Below are positions 4,762 to 28,077 of a stretch of 41,338 nucleotides of DNA, piece by piece; positions within the stretch are counted from its first letter, which is position 1; every line of letters starts with the position of its first letter. A program made the position numbers and the translations under genes. The stretch comes from Omnitrophica WOR_2 bacterium RIFCSPHIGHO2_02_FULL_50_17 (lineage in GTDB: Bacteria; Omnitrophota; Gorgyraeia; Zapsychrales; Zapsychraceae), in the NCBI GenBank assembly GCA_001805645.1, contig MHGQ01000002.1, positions 1-41,338 of the forward strand, read 5' to 3'. A model generated the notes under the pieces. It saw only the letters and a program-made list of their open reading frames with translations, did no database searches and had not been told where the DNA came from.

Positions 4762-5496
4762 ATGAGAAAAATACTTATCGCATTTGGTTTTTTGGTAGCG
4801 CTAAATTTTTTGATGATGCCCAAAGCAGATGCATCCTTAATCGGCTATTGGAATTTTAACGAAGGTTTAGGGGATGTGGCGAATGATAGTTCCGGCTTTG
4901 GGAATCATGCCACCGGCTTAGAATCAGGCTGGGTGCCGGGCAAATATGGGTACGGCACAAACAGCAGTACCATCATAGTACAGCCGGATTCATCACTATT
5001 ACCTTCCTCAAGTCTAACTATTTCGGCATGGGCAAAGATCGATGAGTTCAACGGGTTGCAGCGAAGGATTGCTGAGATGGAATATCGTTATGGATTGCTG
5101 TTCAATCCTCCGAATGTTGACTTTGAGACGCCCTTTCTTTTTAATATCAATTCGGACAATTTCGGTCTGGAATTTCAGAACCCGGAGATAGGGGAGTGGT
5201 TTCACGCGGCGGTTTCGTGGGATGGGAGCATTGTGCAGTTTTATTATAACGGCGTTCCGGCCACGCCGGTCGTTGTGAATGCGACAATAGATCAGGTTGG
5301 CGGTGTGCCGTTGTATCTGGGAGCGCAGGGGTATACTTTGGATGAGGCCCGCATTTATAACACTGCTCTTTCACGTGGGGATGTTATTAGGGATATGAAT
5401 TTTGACAGCACCGCCGTCCCCGAACCGTCAACGATGCTTCTGTTGGGCGCGGGGTTATTGGGCGGGGTCCGGTTGCGGAAAAAATCGAGTATCTAG
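4762..5496 (+). CDS. LamG/concanavalin-like domain PEP-CTERM sorted protein
   Basis: Signal peptide MRKILIAFGFLVALNFLMMPKADA; LamG-like core (LIGYWNFNEGLGDVANDSSGFGNHATG...); C-terminal VPEPSTMLLLGAGLLGGVRLRKK. Confidence 0.93.
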   Translation: MRKILIAFGFLVALNFLMMPKADASLIGYWNFNEGLGDVANDSSGFGNHATGLESGWVPGKYGYGTNSSTIIVQPDSSLLPSSSLTISAWAKIDEFNGLQRRIAEMEYRYGLLFNPPNVDFETPFLFNINSDNFGLEFQNPEIGEWFHAAVSWDGSIVQFYYNGVPATPVVVNATIDQVGGVPLYLGAQGYTLDEARIYNTALSRGDVIRDMNFDSTAVPEPSTMLLLGAGLLGGVRLRKKSSI

Positions 5497-5533
5497 CATC
5501 GAGAATCTCGACACTAGATACTCGATACTCGCA
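5483..5533. repeat. Intergenic palindromic element
   Basis: CGAGTATCTAG...CTAGATACTCG, 11-bp perfect arms, with a nested CATCGAGAATCTCGACA. Confidence 0.75.
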
Positions 5534-13782: not shown

Positions 13783-13783
13783 T

Positions 13784-13842
13784 CGTCATTCGTCGTTCGC
13801 ATATCGTACTTCGACATACGAAGTGCGAATGACGAAGTACGG
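13784..13842. repeat. Intergenic palindromic element (CGTCATTCG...CGAATGACG and CGTACTTCG...CGAAGTACG)
   Basis: 9-bp perfect arms 13784-13792/13826-13834; nested CTTCG-acata-CGAAG. Confidence 0.7.
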
Positions 13843-18780: not shown

Positions 18781-21354
18781 ATGAAGAAAACCATACTGAT
18801 ATCCAGCCTTGTTGTCATTATTGTTCTTCTCGCCGAGGCCTACCGTGAAAATCTGAACATGGACTGGCAGCATTATCAGCGGCTTTACAAGGATAAGCTG
18901 CTTCAATTGGCAAGAACTCCTCAAGAGAAGGCGCTGGCCAAGCAGTATGAAATCAAGATGCGCCAGATTGTCCTTCCGGCATTGAACCGCGTGGACCGCT
19001 GTGTCATTTGCCACGCGGCGATGGAAGATTCCCGTATGAGGGATATGCCGAATCCTTTGAAGACTCATCCCGGCGATTATCTGGAAACGCACGAAGTTGA
19101 ACAGACCGGCTGCACCATCTGCCACGACGGCCAAGGCAGGGCCATCACGTTCCGTGAGGCTTTGGCTCACGGCGAGAATAAGTATTGGGAGAAACCGCTT
19201 CTTGTTAAACCTTTCCTCGAGGCCAATTGTTACCGCTGCCACCGTGCCTCTTTAAAGGAAACGCCTCATTATAATGCAGGAAATGCTCTCTTTGAGACAA
19301 AAGGGTGTCTAGGCTGTCATAAGATTAACGGCAAAGGAGGGGTTAAGGGGCCGGATCTCTCTTATTTAGGCGATGCCAATTTTCATCTGAAAATACCGAC
19401 GGCTGAAAATCGCAAGCCCCTTTTGGAAAAATTTAATGATAACGTGAATCTCGCCTATATTTATGAGGCTGTGAAATTTCCTCATGAGCAGCCCAAAGAT
19501 TCCAAGATGCTGGATTATCATTTGACCGACGAGGAGGCTGTTAATCTGACGGTTTTCCTCAAAGGGCTGACGACCGATATCGTGCCCAAGAGCCTTGTTT
19601 CTAAAAAGGCGCCTCAAGTCCCCTTGGACATCCTGGGACGCGGGGCCATCCTGTATGCCCAATATTGTTCGGCATGCCACGGCCTTGACGGCAGAGGGAC
19701 GCACCTCTCGGAACTCACGAAGATCGGCCCGGCGGTCGGCAATGAAGAGTTTCTTGCCATCGCTGATGAAAAATTGCTGGGGCATGTCGTCAGTTTCTCC
19801 CGGGGCGGCGAGATGCCGGCCTTTGCCACCACCGGCGGACTTACCCCCGAAGAGATTCAAGACATCGTGCAGTATATTTTCTCTTTTAGGCGGACCCCGC
19901 CTCCTTTTGAAGAAGTGATGGCTGTGGAGGGGAACGCCCGTTACGGAGAGAATTTCTTTAGAGGCAACTGCGCCAATTGTCACGGGGTGGACGGCAAATA
20001 CAGCACAGACTTGATTGGCCCTACTTTGAATAATTCGACCCTTCTGGGGCTGGCCACAAAAAAGTTTTGGTATAACACGATTGTCCGCGGCCGTGCCGGG
20101 ACCGCCATGCCGGCCTGGCATTTTCTAAATAAAGAACAGATCGCGGATCTGATCGCCTTTCTTGAGGATTTGAAACCAAAGACGCTGGATAAAGAACAAA
20201 CCATGGTGAAGGTGTGGACCGAGGCCTCTAAGGAAAACGGAAAGAAGCTCTTTGACGGGCAATGCGCTATTTGTCATGGCATTGATGGCACGGGGGGCAT
20301 GGGGCCGAATCTTCAAAATGCGGAATTCCAAAAACAGGCGGATGCGGAATTTATATTCCATGTTATGTCCCAAGGCCGTCCGGGGACAGCCATGCCGAGC
20401 TGGAATCTGCTTACACCGCAGGATGCGGCAGATATTATCGCCTATGTGAAGTCCTGGCAGGCCGGGGAATCCGCTCCCTTATCCGATGAGCGTATTATCG
20501 GCTCCGAAAAGCAAGGCGAAAAGATTTTTGCCAGCTCCTGCGCCCAGTGTCACGGCGTCTCGCCGAGGGCGATGGTAGGACCGGCGGTCTTGTCCGAAGG
20601 GTTCTTAAAACAGGCGAGTGATTCCTTTATCAAAAATATGATTATGTATGGGCGAAGCCATACGCAGATGCGGCCGGCCTTTAAAGGAGAAGGCGGAATT
20701 ATCGAGTTAAACGAAGAGGAAGTTAATTCCGTTGTGGCTTACATCCGGTCATTAGAGGAAAATCCTGTTGTCTTGGAGGGAAAATCCTCTGTTCAGGGCG
20801 ATTCCCAGGTCGGTAAAGCCCTTTTTGCCAGAAACTGCGCCCAGTGTCACGGTGAGTTCGGCGAGGGCGGCAACGGTCCGGCCATCGGCAAAAAGGGTTT
20901 CTTAGAGACGGTCTCGGACGGTTTTATTTTCGCGATGATGCGTATGGGACGGGGGGACTCCGAAATGAAAGCCTTCCCGCCGCATGGCAGCGGATTTGCC
21001 AGCTTAAGCGATAAAGACGCGGCTGATATCATCAGTTTTTTAAGATCAGATCTCAACAAGGCCGAGCAGTACGCCAAGAAAGTGCAGGGCGTTCCCGGCC
21101 GCGGGAAAGAGCTTTTTGACCGTGACTGTGCCCAGTGCCACGGTCCGGACGGCCGCGGCGGCATCGCGCCGGATTTGAATAATAAATTTTTTATGGAGGC
21201 TGTCTCGGACAGTTACCTGCAGGCGACCATGGCCATCGGCCGCCATAATACACAGATGCGCTCCATGATGAAAGGCGGCAGCGGTGTCGTCGAGCTTTCC
21301 TCGCAGGACGTGAATGATATTATCAGTTATTTAAGATTTCTCGTCGAAAGGTAA
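18781..21354 (+). CDS. Decaheme c-type cytochrome: membrane-anchored tetraheme head plus six tandem monoheme cytochrome c domains
   Basis: Ten CxxCH counted: CVICH, CTICH, CYRCH, CLGCH, CSACH, CANCH, CAICH, CAQCH x3; N-terminal hydrophobic anchor. Confidence 0.93.
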   Translation: MKKTILISSLVVIIVLLAEAYRENLNMDWQHYQRLYKDKLLQLARTPQEKALAKQYEIKMRQIVLPALNRVDRCVICHAAMEDSRMRDMPNPLKTHPGDYLETHEVEQTGCTICHDGQGRAITFREALAHGENKYWEKPLLVKPFLEANCYRCHRASLKETPHYNAGNALFETKGCLGCHKINGKGGVKGPDLSYLGDANFHLKIPTAENRKPLLEKFNDNVNLAYIYEAVKFPHEQPKDSKMLDYHLTDEEAVNLTVFLKGLTTDIVPKSLVSKKAPQVPLDILGRGAILYAQYCSACHGLDGRGTHLSELTKIGPAVGNEEFLAIADEKLLGHVVSFSRGGEMPAFATTGGLTPEEIQDIVQYIFSFRRTPPPFEEVMAVEGNARYGENFFRGNCANCHGVDGKYSTDLIGPTLNNSTLLGLATKKFWYNTIVRGRAGTAMPAWHFLNKEQIADLIAFLEDLKPKTLDKEQTMVKVWTEASKENGKKLFDGQCAICHGIDGTGGMGPNLQNAEFQKQADAEFIFHVMSQGRPGTAMPSWNLLTPQDAADIIAYVKSWQAGESAPLSDERIIGSEKQGEKIFASSCAQCHGVSPRAMVGPAVLSEGFLKQASDSFIKNMIMYGRSHTQMRPAFKGEGGIIELNEEEVNSVVAYIRSLEENPVVLEGKSSVQGDSQVGKALFARNCAQCHGEFGEGGNGPAIGKKGFLETVSDGFIFAMMRMGRGDSEMKAFPPHGSGFASLSDKDAADIISFLRSDLNKAEQYAKKVQGVPGRGKELFDRDCAQCHGPDGRGGIAPDLNNKFFMEAVSDSYLQATMAIGRHNTQMRSMMKGGSGVVELSSQDVNDIISYLRFLVER

Positions 21355-21360
21355 TGACTC

Positions 21361-21486
21361 AGTTCCCCTCCCTCGGATGGGAGGGGATTCCGCCGGAGGC
21401 GGATCCGCCTTTGGCGGAAGGGGAGGGTGAGAAAAATTATTATCTTCACCCCCACCGAACCTCCTCCATCGACGGGGGAGGAAGAT
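21361..21486. repeat. Composite palindromic repeat element, long intergenic copy
   Basis: Hairpin A CCCCTCCC-tcggat-GGGAGGGG (21365-21386); inner palindrome AGGCGGATCCGCCT; TTCACCCCCACC; hairpin B CCTCCTCC-atcgac-GGGGGAGG (21460-21481). Related to 25795-25863. Confidence 0.8.
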
Positions 21487-21511
21487 CTGAGTAGTTACAT
21501 CGAAAGAGATA

Positions 21512-24199
21512 TTGAAAGGAAGGGGAGATAAAATGAAAAGGCAAAAATGGTCTATGTCGCGGCGTAATTTCCTTAAAGGCACCGTTGCCGGCGCGGCCGC
21601 CGTGGGGATGTCGGATATGCTTTTCGCGCCTGAAAAAATTTTGGCCGAGGAGCTGGGGCTTGTTTCTTCCGTCAAGGAATACGCGGCCCAGTGTCCTTAC
21701 TGCGGGGTCGGCTGCGGCTCGATTATTAAAGTCGATCAGGCCACGGGCCGGGTGATGGGCTGTGTCCCGGACAAACAGCACCCCACCAATAAAGGCGTGC
21801 AGTGCATCAAGGGTTTAAACGCCGACGAGCCGATTTATATTGACCGTCTGACGAAAGTCTTGATCCGCAAGGACATGAGCGATCCCATGACGGGACATGT
21901 CTCCAAGTCTAAGGGGAGTTTTAAAGACAGCGATTTCAGGGAAGCGACTTATGAGGAGGCCGAGGGAATCATTGCCCATAAGCTGGCGGAGATTTATAAG
22001 CAGTTCGGCGGCAACACCATCGGCCTTTACGGTTCGGGGCAGTTGACCGTTGAGACCCAGTGGATTGAGAACAAATTCATGAAGGGGATTCTGACTTCCA
22101 ACTCCATCGAGGCCAATGCCCGCACCTGCATGACCTCAGCAGTCACGGCGTACATAGCGACCTTGGGCTCGGATACGCCGCCTTTGTCCTACGAGGATAT
22201 TGAATTAAGCGATATGATTCTTTTCTGGGGGCATAACCCGCGGGAAGCGCATACGATTATGTTCTGGCGTTGCGCGGATCACAAAAAGGCCAATGATATC
22301 CCGACGGTCATCGCTGACCCGCGGCGCACCGGAAGTGTTCAGGCGCTGGAGGCGATTAACCCGCGCAACAGCTATCATTTTCAGACCCTCAACGGCGATA
22401 TTTCCATCCTCAACGCCATCGGCCATGTCCTGGTGACCGACCATGAAGACGTGATTGATTACGCCTTCCTTAAAGAAAATGTTACGGGCTGGGAAGAGTA
22501 TATTAAGATGGTCAAGGAAGAATATAAGCCGGAGGACGTGGTTGACCGGACTATGGTTGACCCCCAGCTTATCCGCAAGGTCGCCTCCGAATGGGCCGAA
22601 GCCACGCGTAAGGGGAGACAGCGTGGTGTGGGCGGTGTCATTTCTTTTTGGGGAATCGGATACAATCAACATATCCACGGCCAGCACAATGTCATCAGCA
22701 TCATCAACCTCCATGCCTTGACCGGCAATATCGCAAGGCCGGGCTGCGGCCCGTTTTCCATGACAGGACAGCCCAACGCCATGGGGGAGCGCCTGATGGG
22801 CGGCTTGACGGGACGGCTTCCTTTTAACGTCGGGCTGGACAATAAACCGCACCGCGACTGGATTGCCCAGCACTGGAAGGTCCCTGTCGAGCGCATGGAT
22901 ACCGTGGCCACGGCCCAGAATCCGGGGATGATGGTCGGTATGTTTGAGCGCGCCCTTAAAGGGGACGTCAAGGCCATGCTGTATATATACACGACGCATA
23001 TCCATCAGCCGGATTTAAACAATCTGATCCGGCCGGCCATGACCAAGATGTTCGTCGTGGTGCAGGATATCTACCGCCATGCCCCCAACGTCCTTTACGG
23101 CGATGTGATTCTGCCGGCGCTGACGTGGGGAGAATGGCAGGGCGGCACCTACATCAGCTCCGAGAGGCGGTTTAATGTCGTGGACGGCGTCGGTAAAGGC
23201 GCCCCCGGTCTTGAGGAGTGTCTCCCGGATTTGGATTACGCCATTGATAAGGCCAAGAAGATCGCCGGCCTCATCGGATTGGACGGCGAGAAAATCTTTC
23301 CTTACAAGAAAAAGAAGTATCATCCCGACGGGCCGATGCTCTATGATACGGAAGAGATCTTTGAGGAGATTGTCAGGGCGTCTAAGGGAACGGACTGCGA
23401 CATGACAGGGATGCTGGAGGTCAAAGAGCGCGACGGCATAGGGCTCTATGATCAGATCCGCCAATTGAAGGGGATTCAGTGGCCGGCGCCCAATTATGAG
23501 ATTGCCAAGGCTGGAGGGACCAAAAGGCGGTATATGGGCCAGGAAAGCTGGGAAGGGAAACCTTACGGCAATTTCCGGCACACGGACGGCAAACTGCATA
23601 TCAAGTCGTGCCGCCAGGATTATTCCAAACGCCAGGAGGTCATGGCCGAGCTGGTCAAGATGGGCACGGTTGAGGGGTATTACACGCTTGATCACCAGGA
23701 CGTCCTTGTCAAGGCGCGGGATATGGCCCTCACGCCCGACATGCCGGATCTCGAACTGCTGGGCAGACACTGGAAAGAAATCCCGTTGGATAAATATCCT
23801 TTCTGGCTGGGGTTGGGAATCGTGTATGAGCACTTTCATAGCGCAAAGACGATTCGCGGGGCAACGACGCGGCGCCTTGTGCCGGAGCAGTACGTGGAGA
23901 TGCACCCCGGTGACGCCGCGGAAAACGGCCTGCGCGACGGCGATAAAATCCGCGTGATTACCCGCCGGGGTTCTTATGAGGGGCGGGTCAGCGTCGGCGG
24001 TTACCGCAGCAAGGTCAGGCCTGCGCGCAATGAGGTGCCTAAGGGGTATATTTTTTCGCCGTGGAATCTCTCTGTCGCGGATTCGGCGGATCCGGCGGAA
24101 AATAAATGGCTGGTGAATACTACTTCCCACAGGGCCTATGACCCGGTTTCGGGGCAGGTGGATTATAAAAAACTGGCGGCCCGTATCGAGAAAATATAG
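21512..24199 (+). CDS. NapA/NasC-like molybdopterin oxidoreductase catalytic subunit (Tat-exported)
   Basis: MSRRNFLKGTVAGAAA Tat signal; [4Fe-4S] CPYCGVGCG...CIKG; Cys ligand in SNSIEANARTCMTSAV; TGQPNAMGERLMGGLTGRLP. The likely start may be the Met at SMSRRNFLK. Confidence 0.92.
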   Translation: MKGRGDKMKRQKWSMSRRNFLKGTVAGAAAVGMSDMLFAPEKILAEELGLVSSVKEYAAQCPYCGVGCGSIIKVDQATGRVMGCVPDKQHPTNKGVQCIKGLNADEPIYIDRLTKVLIRKDMSDPMTGHVSKSKGSFKDSDFREATYEEAEGIIAHKLAEIYKQFGGNTIGLYGSGQLTVETQWIENKFMKGILTSNSIEANARTCMTSAVTAYIATLGSDTPPLSYEDIELSDMILFWGHNPREAHTIMFWRCADHKKANDIPTVIADPRRTGSVQALEAINPRNSYHFQTLNGDISILNAIGHVLVTDHEDVIDYAFLKENVTGWEEYIKMVKEEYKPEDVVDRTMVDPQLIRKVASEWAEATRKGRQRGVGGVISFWGIGYNQHIHGQHNVISIINLHALTGNIARPGCGPFSMTGQPNAMGERLMGGLTGRLPFNVGLDNKPHRDWIAQHWKVPVERMDTVATAQNPGMMVGMFERALKGDVKAMLYIYTTHIHQPDLNNLIRPAMTKMFVVVQDIYRHAPNVLYGDVILPALTWGEWQGGTYISSERRFNVVDGVGKGAPGLEECLPDLDYAIDKAKKIAGLIGLDGEKIFPYKKKKYHPDGPMLYDTEEIFEEIVRASKGTDCDMTGMLEVKERDGIGLYDQIRQLKGIQWPAPNYEIAKAGGTKRRYMGQESWEGKPYGNFRHTDGKLHIKSCRQDYSKRQEVMAELVKMGTVEGYYTLDHQDVLVKARDMALTPDMPDLELLGRHWKEIPLDKYPFWLGLGIVYEHFHSAKTIRGATTRRLVPEQYVEMHPGDAAENGLRDGDKIRVITRRGSYEGRVSVGGYRSKVRPARNEVPKGYIFSPWNLSVADSADPAENKWLVNTTSHRAYDPVSGQVDYKKLAARIEKI

Positions 24200-24266
24200 A
24201 AGACCGAAGACCACAGACTATAGACCATAGACAAAGGTCTCCTGTCTATGGTCTTTTGTCTTTGGC
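24200..24266. repeat. Intergenic palindrome GACCATAGAC-N11-GTCTATGGTC within GAAGACC/GACTATAGACC word repeats
   Basis: 10-bp perfect arms 24223-24232/24244-24253. Confidence 0.75.
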
Positions 24267-24275
24267 AGGGGAGTT

Positions 24276-24866
24276 ATGAAACGAAGAAATTTTCTAAGAC
24301 GTTTTTTCATGGCGTTGGGGGCGATTTATCTTTGGGAAGGTAAAGCGCGGGCGGGTCTTTTATCCGGCGTCCGCCATAAGGATTATTTGCGGCCGCCCGG
24401 GGCATTGCCTGAAGAAAAATTTTTGGCGACCTGCATCAATTGCCACCGCTGCGGTCAGGCCTGTCCGAACGACTGCATCAAGTATGTCAATGACCCCTTC
24501 AATCTCGTCGCGCACGATACGCCGTACATCGTGCCGCGCGAAAAGGCCTGTATCCTGTGCATGAAATGCACGCAAGTATGTCCGTCGGGGGCGCTGCAGC
24601 CTGTGGCTGACGAGGAGGGGGAGACGATATTAAAACATGTGAAGATGGGGACCGCCGTCGTTGATACAAACATTTGCAATTCTTATAACGGCTATACCTG
24701 CGGGGTCTGTGTTAGGGCATGCCCTTTTTCCGGCGTTGCCTTAAAGGCCGAGACATGGGAGCGGCCTGTTGTTATGGAAGACAAGTGTGTGGGCTGCGGT
24801 TTGTGCGAACAGAGCTGTATCCATTATCCGCAGGCGATTCGGGTCGTGCCGATCCGCAAGGCGTAG
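24276..24866 (+). CDS. NapG/MauM-like ferredoxin with four [4Fe-4S] motifs
   Basis: CINCHRCGQACPNDC, CILCMKCTQVCPSGA, CGVCVRACPF, CVGCGLCEQSC; N-terminal MKRRNFLRRFF. Confidence 0.9.
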   Translation: MKRRNFLRRFFMALGAIYLWEGKARAGLLSGVRHKDYLRPPGALPEEKFLATCINCHRCGQACPNDCIKYVNDPFNLVAHDTPYIVPREKACILCMKCTQVCPSGALQPVADEEGETILKHVKMGTAVVDTNICNSYNGYTCGVCVRACPFSGVALKAETWERPVVMEDKCVGCGLCEQSCIHYPQAIRVVPIRKA

Positions 24867-24879
24867 AGAAAAAGTGAAG

Positions 24880-27800
24880 ATGATTACAAAATTCCGACGA
24901 ATAGTTCAAATGACGATCCTGGCGGGGATTATCCTGACGGTCTATTTTCATTATTACGAAAATCAGAAGGTCAAATACGGGGGAGAGGCCGTTATACGGG
25001 ATTCCGTCGTCTTACGCGCTATTGACAAGGCCGTTGGCCGCATTGAAAACCGCACTCAACTCATAACATTCTTCAAGGGCGATGTGTGGACAGCCCAGAT
25101 CGGGCAATGGAAATTGACGGACCCTTTGGCCTTTTTCGGCAATCTGATCCGGACGAAGGAGATTTACTGGCCGTTATTTTTTTCTGCCCTGATCCCAATA
25201 GCGGCAACGGTGATCCTGGGAAAGATTTTCTGTGGATGGATTTGTCCCATGGGGCTTCTATTCGAGTGGAACAGCCGATTGCGCCGGTTCTTAAAGAAAG
25301 CGGGCCTTCCGCTTTTTGACTTTAAACTGCCGGCCTCAGTTAAATTTTTCGTCTTGGGAGGAGGGCTTTTGACGGGTCTGATCTTTGGCGCGCATTATTT
25401 TCTTATCATTTATCCGCCCAAACTTATCTCCGGCGAGATTTATTTAAGTATTACGCGTTCGACGTTGAGTTATGGCGCTATTTTTCTTTTTACTCTTCTT
25501 GCCGTGGAGCTGGTTTTAGCGCCCCGCTTGTGGTGCCGAAGCCTTTGTCCCGGGGGCGCCCTTTACACGCTTTTAAGCCGGTTCAGGTTTCTGCGCATCC
25601 AAAACGACCGGAGGCGCTGCACCGACTGCGGCATTTGCGACCGCGCTTGTCCTTACGAGATTCAACCGTCTAAGGGGAATTTATCGTCCGAGTGCGATCA
25701 CTGCGGTGTCTGCATTGATAAGTGCCCTGTGAATACACTTTTTTTCAGTGTCATCAATGACCGTGAGATATACCAGCGGGTGGTGCAACAGCGGATTCCT
25801 CCCCCATCGAAAAGGGGGAGGGAAGGTGGGGGTGAGAATCCCCTCCCTCGATGGGAGGGGAAGTTCTGGAAACAAATGGTTATCTTTCTAGGCGTTTTTT
25901 TAATAACGACCAGCGCCCACGCCCATCATATCCGCGGACTTCCCCATTACGGCTATTCGAAAAATTATCCCCAAGTTCCCACCTATGAAGAGTCTCGCGT
26001 GGTGGATGACTGGGGAATCTCGTTCTCTTATATTAAAATTTTTGAAACAAAAAACTGTGATCTGGCCATTTATCTGAAGAACACGAAAACAGGCAAGCCT
26101 TTTGACGGGGTGATGAGTTTTAAGGTTTTTGGCGAACATGAAGACCCGCACGATGTCCATGCCTATGACGCCCACCGGCATACCAATACCTACCGGGTGG
26201 GGTGGGTTTATGAAAAAGACGGGATTTATACGCTGCGCATTACATTCAACGACGGCGGTAAAACCTATATGGAAGATTTCCGGATGCAGATGGGCAATGT
26301 TGGGTTTAATAAGCTTTGGCTGATTCTGCCGGCATCTGTTGTCTTGATGCTGGTTTTTTTAAATGTCATCAAACGTCTTAGGGGAAAATCTGTGAAGACA
26401 GCGGCGGTTGTTTTAGCCTTGATTTATACGTTTGCGGCCCCGGCGCTTGTCTTTGCCGCCGAGAAAGGCTTCTGCCCGATTTGCGGGATGAAGATGCCCT
26501 GCCCGATGAAATGTATCGCCGCGGTCACCGGCTCCGGCGGTGAGAAGATGATGCTCATGTCCGGTATGCCGGCCAGGCTTTTTTTTACCGGCATCGCGCT
26601 TGTGCTGATTGTTTCTTTTATCGCCGTTGAGATCCTAATCCGGGGCTCAAAACAGCCCGGCGACTATGCCAAGTTTAATTTGCTTGAGATGCGATGGCTC
26701 AATGCGCTTGTAAAGAAACCCTATTTCAAATTTCTTTTTCAGTTTCCCGTATTTCTCGTTTTTTGTTTCATTATTTATGCCGGCCTTTTCGGGCACGGCA
26801 TTATCAATATTGCGCCGATCTTGACCTGGACCATCTGGTGGGCGGGATTAGTCTTTTTGATTTTATTTTTCGGCAAGGCGTGGTGTTTTGTCTGTCCATG
26901 GGATTTTATGGCTACGTTATTTCAGCATCTGAAACCCTTCGGCGTCAGCAATGCCCCTTTCACATTGGGCTTGAAGTGGCCGCCGTGGCTTAAGAATATT
27001 TATCTGGCCATCGGGCTTTTTATCCTGCTGACGTGGTTTGAGCTTGGGTTTAAGGTGACGGCCTCGCCGCGTTCCACGGCCTTTTTGGGTATCTTGATGG
27101 TCTGCCTTTCGATTGTGCCGGCGCTTATCTTTGAGAAGCGTTCTTTTTGCAAATACGGGTGTCTCGTGGGGCGCATCTCCGGGCTTTACGCGATGTTTGC
27201 ACCTATTGAGGTGCGAAGTAAAGACTTATCCGTATGCACCGCATGCCGCACTAAAGATTGTTTTGCGGGAAATGACCGCGGCAATCCTTGCCCGACGTCC
27301 CTTGTTATCCCTCAAATTCGCGAAAATACTTATTGTATTTTGTGCACGGAATGCGTGCGAAGCTGCCCCCATGATAACGTGGCGGTTAATATACGCCCCT
27401 TTGCCGCAGACCTCAGGCGGTTTAAAACGGCGCGTCCCGATGAGGCCTGGCTGGCTGTGATTCTTCTGGCGTTAACGTCTTTTCACGGCCTGACGATGAC
27501 GCCTCTGTGGGATTCAGCGGCTCAGACCTCTGTTCTCGGGCTTCTGCAGTCAACATTGAGCGTGGGCCGGCTGAGCGCCTTTACGATCGGGATGATCCTT
27601 GTCAACGGCCTGCTGGCGTTGCTTTATTACGGCATTTCGATTATTACCCAGAGGTTTGCCGGCGACGCGGATGTCCCGACGAAGAAAATTTTTTTATATT
27701 ACGCTTATTCGATTCTGCCCATTGCGCTTTTTTATCATCTGGCGCATAATGGGATGCATTTTTTTATGGAAGGGCAGATGGTTGTGCCGTTACTTTCGGA

Positions 27801-28077
27801 TCCTTTAGGGAGAGGGGCGAATTTCTTCGGGACGGCCGCCTGGCAGATGGGTCCGATTCTTTCGAGCCAGAGCATCTGGCATCTTCAGGTGGGCCTTGTC
27901 CTCACGGGCCATATCTTCGGAATTATCATCGCGCATCATGTCTCGCGCAGGCTTTTTGCCGATGACAGAAAAGCCCTGCGGTCGCTGCTTCCGATGCTGG
28001 CGGGGATGATCTTTTTCTCCTGTGTCTCTTTATGGATTATGCACCTGGATATGAATATGCGAAGCAGTCTAATGTAG
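24880..28077 (+). CDS. Giant fusion polyferredoxin: NapH-like module + repeat-encoded linker + secreted His-rich/FixH-like module + CPICGM Cys motif + second NapH-like module
   Basis: Single 1065-codon frame from ATG 24880 (trimmed from ORF 24769): CGWICPMGLLFEW..CTDCGICDRACPYE..CDHCGVCIDKCPV; RIPPPSKRGREGGGENPLPRWEGK; MVIFLGVFLITTSAHAHHIRGLPHYGYSK; CPICGMKMPCPMKC; CFVCPWDF..CTACRTKDCF..CILCTECVRSCPHD. Confidence 0.88.
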   Translation: MITKFRRIVQMTILAGIILTVYFHYYENQKVKYGGEAVIRDSVVLRAIDKAVGRIENRTQLITFFKGDVWTAQIGQWKLTDPLAFFGNLIRTKEIYWPLFFSALIPIAATVILGKIFCGWICPMGLLFEWNSRLRRFLKKAGLPLFDFKLPASVKFFVLGGGLLTGLIFGAHYFLIIYPPKLISGEIYLSITRSTLSYGAIFLFTLLAVELVLAPRLWCRSLCPGGALYTLLSRFRFLRIQNDRRRCTDCGICDRACPYEIQPSKGNLSSECDHCGVCIDKCPVNTLFFSVINDREIYQRVVQQRIPPPSKRGREGGGENPLPRWEGKFWKQMVIFLGVFLITTSAHAHHIRGLPHYGYSKNYPQVPTYEESRVVDDWGISFSYIKIFETKNCDLAIYLKNTKTGKPFDGVMSFKVFGEHEDPHDVHAYDAHRHTNTYRVGWVYEKDGIYTLRITFNDGGKTYMEDFRMQMGNVGFNKLWLILPASVVLMLVFLNVIKRLRGKSVKTAAVVLALIYTFAAPALVFAAEKGFCPICGMKMPCPMKCIAAVTGSGGEKMMLMSGMPARLFFTGIALVLIVSFIAVEILIRGSKQPGDYAKFNLLEMRWLNALVKKPYFKFLFQFPVFLVFCFIIYAGLFGHGIINIAPILTWTIWWAGLVFLILFFGKAWCFVCPWDFMATLFQHLKPFGVSNAPFTLGLKWPPWLKNIYLAIGLFILLTWFELGFKVTASPRSTAFLGILMVCLSIVPALIFEKRSFCKYGCLVGRISGLYAMFAPIEVRSKDLSVCTACRTKDCFAGNDRGNPCPTSLVIPQIRENTYCILCTECVRSCPHDNVAVNIRPFAADLRRFKTARPDEAWLAVILLALTSFHGLTMTPLWDSAAQTSVLGLLQSTLSVGRLSAFTIGMILVNGLLALLYYGISIITQRFAGDADVPTKKIFLYYAYSILPIALFYHLAHNGMHFFMEGQMVVPLLSDPLGRGANFFGTAAWQMGPILSSQSIWHLQVGLVLTGHIFGIIIAHHVSRRLFADDRKALRSLLPMLAGMIFFSCVSLWIMHLDMNMRSSLM
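25795..25863. repeat. Composite palindromic repeat element, short copy embedded in frame in a CDS
   Basis: Hairpin CCTCCCCC-atcgaaaa-GGGGGAGG (25798-25821) + GGTGGGGGTGAGAAT + hairpin CCCCTCCC-tcgat-GGGAGGGG (25840-25860); reverse complement matches both ends of 21361-21486. Confidence 0.85.

Follow-up and report, generated by a model that had tools for sequence, protein, structure and literature searches.

A palindromic element in frame within an Omnitrophota redox gene as a probable gene-less copy of a hairpin-bounded DUF559 mobile unit

The DNA analyzed here, in the following called the window, is a stretch of 41,338 nucleotides that constitutes the whole contig C2 of the source genome, and a 69-bp palindromic element lies in frame within one of its genes, at positions 25795–25863. 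We regard this element as a copy, without a gene and shortened internally, of a mobile unit that is bounded by hairpins and that, in its gene-bearing form, encodes a DUF559 nuclease (PF04480; Vsr-like, PD-(D/E)XK), a reading to which we assign a probability of about 60%. At each end of such a unit, a GC-rich hairpin is adjoined on its inner side by a G-rich arm, with the two ends in inverted orientation to each other. Palindromic mobile sequences that lie in frame in genes are already known, namely RPE, ERIC and RU (PMC10969869, PMC2759123), and what is new here is the hairpin pair that brackets a DUF559 gene in relatives.

The letters at about 25795–25863 read ATT CCTCCCCC-ATCGAAAA-GGGGGAGG-GAAGGTGGGGGTGAGAAT-CCCCTCCC-TCGAT-GGGAGGGG AAG. 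The first hairpin, CCTCCCCC-ATCGAAAA-GGGGGAGG, covers 25798–25821, the second, CCCCTCCC-TCGAT-GGGAGGGG, covers 25840–25860, and the inner arm GAAGGTGGGGGTGAGAAT between them (25822–25839) is the reverse complement of TCACCCCCACC, which is conserved in the core. The core orientation of this copy is minus, its layout is hairpin 2, the TCACCCCCACC arm and hairpin 1, and the R1 sequence model matches at 25802–25861 with an E value of 4.2e-6. Relative to a full core, some 20 nt of the center are missing while both hairpins and one inner arm have been kept, and neither a terminal inverted repeat (TIR) nor a target duplication was recognized at the ends of this copy. Both GC-rich hairpins are predicted on either strand, an equally good fold being reached by 3 (plus strand) and 1 (minus strand) of 200 dinucleotide shuffles, and the two-hairpin palindromic element that the sequence-only reading had described is therefore borne out by the letters as well as by fold prediction. 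The same reading had the frame open across the element, and this holds with 352 codons upstream and 737 downstream; the insert translates to RIPPPSKRGREGGGENPLPRWEGK (also written IPPPSKRGREGGGENPLPRWEGK), and the peptide of the linker that it encodes includes IPPPSKRGREGGGENPLPR. At gathering thresholds, Rfam gave no match anywhere in the window. Short near-palindromes at 5484–5526, 13783–13835 and 24211–24265, located in the gaps between listed ORFs or at ORF edges and unrelated to the hairpin-core family, are possibly further small palindromic repeat families, and at 288–524 the window contains a 21-bp direct repeat in eight in-register copies that encodes 7-residue units in which R, E and D are abundant.

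The element belongs to a dispersed family. When 81 bp of and around it were compared with the source genome (1.92 Mb, 77 contigs, about 93% complete), 60 BLAST matches were obtained, and about 40 distinct places were recognized when the core was used as a sequence model, so that the element cannot be a chance occurrence; the copies elsewhere in the genome that had been expected from the sequence do exist, and the objection that there might be none is contradicted. Two matches found by BLAST only, at C73:8114 and C16:6127, lie inside genes and were set aside as chance. The consensus of 13 aligned full cores is TTCCCCTCCC-loop-GGGAGGGG-TNAGGGGAGGGTGA-N10-15-TCACCCCCACC-TNN-CCTCCCCC-loop-GGGGGAGG, and since hairpin 1 is complementary to hairpin 2, the core also folds as one long palindrome.

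The link to DUF559 comes from relatives, in which half-cores directly adjoin an ORF of this family. PF04480 was searched in 55 relatives and then in 334 genomes of the phylum, and the flanks of 37 DUF559 loci from family and phylum were scored, excluding G046 and the G007 match on contig C102 as weak PF04480 matches. Paired inverted hairpin flanks with a score of at least 27 were found at 32 of the 37 loci (median 39), and none of 306 control positions within the same loci reached this value, the maximum being 26. The pattern had been suggested by the first loci, and the phylum set serves as an independent check: there, 21 of 25 loci scored above all 200 shuffles, including one, L238, whose scoring sequence is not an obvious hairpin and which was excluded from the covariation test. 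In that test, the hairpin ends covaried with the DUF559 protein (Mantel r = 0.77, reached in 0 of 5000 permutations), and still did so (r = 0.70) when pairs with both members in the window's family were left out; the class of hairpins with a GAAAAA loop occurs in genomes with the matching DUF559 subfamily and scarcely in the others tested. This covariation could reflect the shared descent of one unit. The gene-less cores of the source genome can be matched with both ends of the DUF559 units of relatives at up to 33–36 of 36–40 nt per end, and the core alignment and end comparison demonstrate that the window elements share with the unit the pairing of two inverted hairpins from which G-rich arms point inward. 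At two loci of G021, one copy with and one without a DUF559 gene have the same left outer arm of about 68 nt (TGTCAAAAGTTTTATGAAAAC...) and a similar right end (TTTTGACAG). Several genomes carry two to four DUF559 units each, and bracketed DUF559 genes are also present on some plasmids of Deinococcus, Sphingomonas, Sphingobium, Synechocystis and Pseudanabaena. As to the protein, it matches the PDB entry 3hrl, an ‘endonuclease-like protein’, and YcjD-type and DUF559 proteins have been described as PD-(D/E)XK and Vsr-like (PMC1189080, PMC12907096).

The association is common and not universal, as the DUF559 loci in plasmid records of E. coli, Photobacterium, Shinella, Azospirillum and Methylobacterium have no such hairpin flanks; within this phylum, the flanks are absent from G046, the C102 match of G007, and G302. 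Furthermore, the PF04480 search detected no DUF559 gene in the source genome at its completeness of about 93%, so any mobilizing nuclease is now absent from it or unsampled, and the copies there may be relics. With no DUF559 gene between their hairpins or elsewhere in that genome, the window copies are to be classed as gene-less relatives and not as full members of the DUF559 units. In the literature searched, outside subscription papers and most preprints, we found neither an account of hairpin-bounded DUF559 units nor a paper that treats DUF559 together with ‘inverted repeat’.

The mechanism that we favor for these units is as follows. The DUF559 nuclease may nick or cut at or near the hairpins, or at a target, and host repair would then copy the hairpin-bounded unit into the break. 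Gene-less copies would be moved in trans, and in the source genome many copies were additionally carried by a transposition that involves TIRs and 8-bp duplications. The gene-less form could have arisen from the gene-bearing one by gene loss, or a palindrome could have gained the gene; we infer the former, as loss is the simpler reading.

The contribution of such a transposition is evident from the surroundings of the cores, many of which are enclosed by outer TIRs of at least four unrelated kinds: type A, TTGAGTTTGGCA..TGCCAAACTCAA; type B, GTAATTACTCAG..CTGAGTAGTTAC; type C, TACATTGTCAGA..TCTGACAATGTA; and type D, AATGTTTAGCGG..CCGCTAAACATT. The same core is seen within these unrelated types, for example in copies L003, L017, L016 and L098. 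In type-B copies, 59 of 72 bases of the 8-bp flanking direct duplications match (0 of 10000 permutations), with seven of nine copies matching at 7–8 of the 8 positions; type-A copies have a weaker duplication signal of varying register, and type-D copies gave none in this 8-base flank test. Due to their outer terminal repeats, and in type B also the 8-bp target duplications, most intact copies are transposon-like, and DDE-type transposition on the outer TIRs has clearly spread at least the type-B copies in the source genome. Every paired type-A TIR that was found encloses a core; no type-A TIR pair with both ends but without a core was detected, nor a complete IS with these TIRs. The direct repeat GACTTTTGACCGTTGCCTT that apparently flanks one type-D copy, L094 (contig C57, about 5155), measures about 19 bp, against 8 bp in type B. 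The type-D copies L098 and L094 of the source genome are nearly identical to L108 from G031, which belongs to another genus, and this suggests recent horizontal movement or bin contamination.

The second copy in the window is a complete type-B element on the plus strand that spans 164 bp (21343–21506) including its target duplication. The 8-bp duplications GTCGAAAG/ATCGAAAG are at 21343–21350 and 21499–21506, the 12-bp TIRs at 21351–21362 and 21487–21498, and the core at 21365–21481 consists of hairpin 1 (21365–21386), a nested palindrome, a GGGGAGGGTGA arm, a TCACCCCCACC arm (21446–21456) and hairpin 2 (21461–21481). The nested second palindrome, TTCCGCC..GGCGGAA (TTCCGCCGGAGGCGGATCCGCCTTTGGCGGAA), at about 21388–21419, is shared with two copies on contig C71 (L089, L090), and its presence in three copies indicates that one palindrome entered another and that the composite then multiplied. 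The sequence-only reading had placed a related intergenic copy at 21361–21486; the relation holds, its extent had to be revised to the true insertion with TIRs and duplication, and the copy is not strictly intergenic, as the TAA stop (21352–21354) of the upstream multihaem cytochrome c gene (18781–21354, plus strand) lies within its left TIR. In the virtual empty site, the cytochrome ORF is seven codons longer (DIERKGR) and stops at 21531. The ancestral cytochrome c thus probably had a C-terminus longer by seven residues, the present stop being supplied by the inserted element. Both outcomes occur within a single operon-like cluster of the window: the copy at 25795–25863 was accommodated in frame in the linker of a fused gene, and that at 21343–21506 supplies the upstream cytochrome gene with a new stop.

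The type-B TIRs and duplications, together with the weaker signal in type A, are at the same time a ground for the main rival to the DUF559 reading, according to which the core would be that of a MITE, moved by DDE transposases that act in trans on the outer TIRs; the hairpins and DUF559 would be passengers, and the in-gene copy would have lost its TIRs by deletion or drift. It is also favored by the lack of DUF559 in the source genome and by the DUF559 units of G021, G031 and G003, which lie behind a common outer arm starting TGTCAAAA. However, the presence of the same core, within a single genome, in four or more unrelated kinds of TIR is not explained by one transposase, and the in-gene copies as well as the units in methylase genes have hairpin ends without TIRs. 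The phylum-wide covariation of the hairpins with the DUF559 protein, and the paired hairpins at the ends of most DUF559 loci, likewise argue against mere passengers. We consider this alternative unlikely, albeit of real weight.

A far smaller chance is given to REP or REPIN sequences moved by a tyrosine (Y1) transposase (RAYT). The paired inverted hairpins do resemble REP doublets, and two Y1_Tnp genes exceed the cut-off in this genome, but no matching hairpins were found in the 4.3-kb stretches around either of them, the aligned copies have no GTAG or CGTC tag (as defined in PMC3733652) beside the hairpins, and the outer TIRs and 8-bp duplications of many copies do not fit such a system.

Gene-less copies within genes are also found in relatives. 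In other genomes of the order, the genes that hold a core or half-core in frame include one for an O-antigen ligase-like protein (L152, Wzy_C), one for a family-9 glycosyltransferase (L118), whose 60% identical orthologue (L278) has a shorter and unrelated loop at this position, and an ORF of 1,033 residues in which an amylase domain is recognized (L169). A further one lies, likewise in frame, at the C-terminal end of a radical-SAM gene of a relative (L149). The window insert and these in-gene copies are read in a frame of the I-P-x-P type, the exception being L169 with P-H-P-H, and the stop-free frame of the element is I-P-x-P ... P-L-P-x-x-E-G. Gene-bearing units can be inserted in frame as well: in G025, a DUF559 unit interrupts HsdM directly after DPACGTAGFLISAF, in G340 one lies in frame in another HsdM, in Pseudanabaena pPg_02 one lies in an MmeI-like methylase just 5' of DPACGSGHFLV, and in G064 two are found in one type III methylase. 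The host genes of these units (L182, L233, L260, L261) are all DNA methylase genes, in what is a small sample, and comprise type I HsdM twice, a type III and an MmeI-like enzyme, two of the insertions being beside catalytic motif I. Most of the in-frame units are flanked by the hairpin-derived peptides PLPVGEGPGGEG and PSPPGRGDGGEG.

That the same frame is used in the window gene and in three or four genes from relatives, and that units lie in frame in methylases, might suggest a protein-coding palindromic element of the Rickettsia kind, specialized for in-frame insertion and kept for its peptide. Such a gene-targeting habit, to which the sequence-only reading had drawn a parallel, is at odds with the source genome, where just one of about 40 copies, the one at 25795–25863, lies in a long ORF that is open on both sides. 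Moreover, the other two sense frames of a typical end contain stops, so the constant frame is expected without any selection on the peptide, and this explanation appears marginally less probable still than the preceding one.

The host gene is located on the plus strand at 24880–28077 (listed as 24769–28077; homology begins at MITKFRR near 24880), and its ORF of 1,102 codons encodes a NapH/MauN-like membrane 4Fe-4S protein (PF12801, Fer4) joined to a domain whose beginning resembles a signal-peptide helix (..AHAHHIRGLPHYGY) and to another 4Fe-4S membrane module. Homologues in MAGs of Eisenbacteria, Gemmatimonadetes and Latescibacterota are encoded by two separate genes, mostly in close overlap, and comparison with them identifies the signal-peptide-like MVIFLGVFLITTSAHA at 25876–25925 (plus strand) as the start region of an erstwhile second gene. 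On this comparison, two ancestral genes have been joined to give the host gene, and the element is located in the linker at their junction. The only orthologue found in the same family, that of G016, is about 56–69% identical, depending on the segment; it has the first two parts fused as in the window and contains no palindrome, its linker being unrelated, non-palindromic and about 15 residues shorter. The fusion is therefore independent of the element, and the open frame cannot be put down solely to an independent small ORF or to a gene start located there. The element is best read, from these alignments, as an insertion into a variable linker: the in-frame insertion proposed earlier is indeed absent from the nearest orthologue, and the expected lack of a 23-residue linker was seen in part, since the net difference to G016 is about 15 residues, which, together with the lack of a close relative for comparison, leaves the insertion boundaries uncertain. 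The redox gene tolerated the insert because it had landed in a variable stretch that joins two fused modules and because one frame of the element is free of stops. That the palindrome is a local one or a conserved linker, or else an assembly artefact, can practically be dismissed in view of the approximately 40 related copies and the unrelated, shorter and non-palindromic linker of G016.

Returning to the DUF559 reading, a more general proposal can be made tentatively, and we would put it slightly below even odds: hairpin-bounded DUF559 units may be a distinct class of minimal mobile element, in which a small Vsr-like nuclease gene lies between two inverted hairpins, and which is found across phyla. 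Their gene-less derivatives would be many of the bacterial palindromic repeats that code for ‘PLPxGEG’, and in-frame insertion, notably into DNA methylase genes, would be one of their habits. Short GC-rich palindromic repeats without a known mobilizer are common in bacteria, and a nuclease that covaries with the hairpins is a testable candidate for the mover. The results also suggest that DUF559, a widespread domain of unknown function that is annotated in passing as ‘endonuclease’, frequently represents the coding portion of a mobile unit, and the unusual in-frame insertions seen in methylase genes and in others can be accounted for in this way.

Several known systems share features with this family. 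As in MITEs, the copies are short, non-coding and dispersed, and the copy at 21343–21506 has TIRs and an 8-bp target duplication; unlike in MITEs, the conserved part is a hairpin-pair core found with several TIR types, a TIR is lacking in the in-gene copy, and the coding form carries a nuclease and not a transposase. For ERIC, RU and similar sequences, which were compared by description, we know of no association with DUF559. ERIC, RU and other small mobile sequences are likewise short, occur between and within genes, and carry open frames (PMC2759123, PMC2229807). REPs and REPINs with their RAYT also consist of a pair of inverted GC-rich hairpins that spans about 80 bp and lies mostly between genes, whereas here there is no GTAG or CGTC tag and no RAYT with matching ends, and TIRs and 8-bp duplications are present; the closest listed equivalents, the CGTC REPs, carry a tag that is not seen here (PMC3733652). 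Rickettsia palindromic elements (RPEs), again compared by description, have in common with the window insert that a palindrome lies in frame in a gene and adds a short peptide; nearly half of the RPEs sit in ORFs, according to a review (PMC10969869), whereas the copies of the present family are mostly intergenic and tied to DUF559 units. Finally, Vsr-like/EDxHD homing endonuclease genes, which are free-standing or reside in introns or inteins, are similar in that a small Vsr-like PD-(D/E)XK nuclease is inserted, in some cases in frame and close to the catalytic motifs of conserved genes. The DUF559 units, for which no intron or intein was seen, differ from these in being bounded by hairpins, in occurring as multiple intergenic copies, and in having gene-less derivatives.
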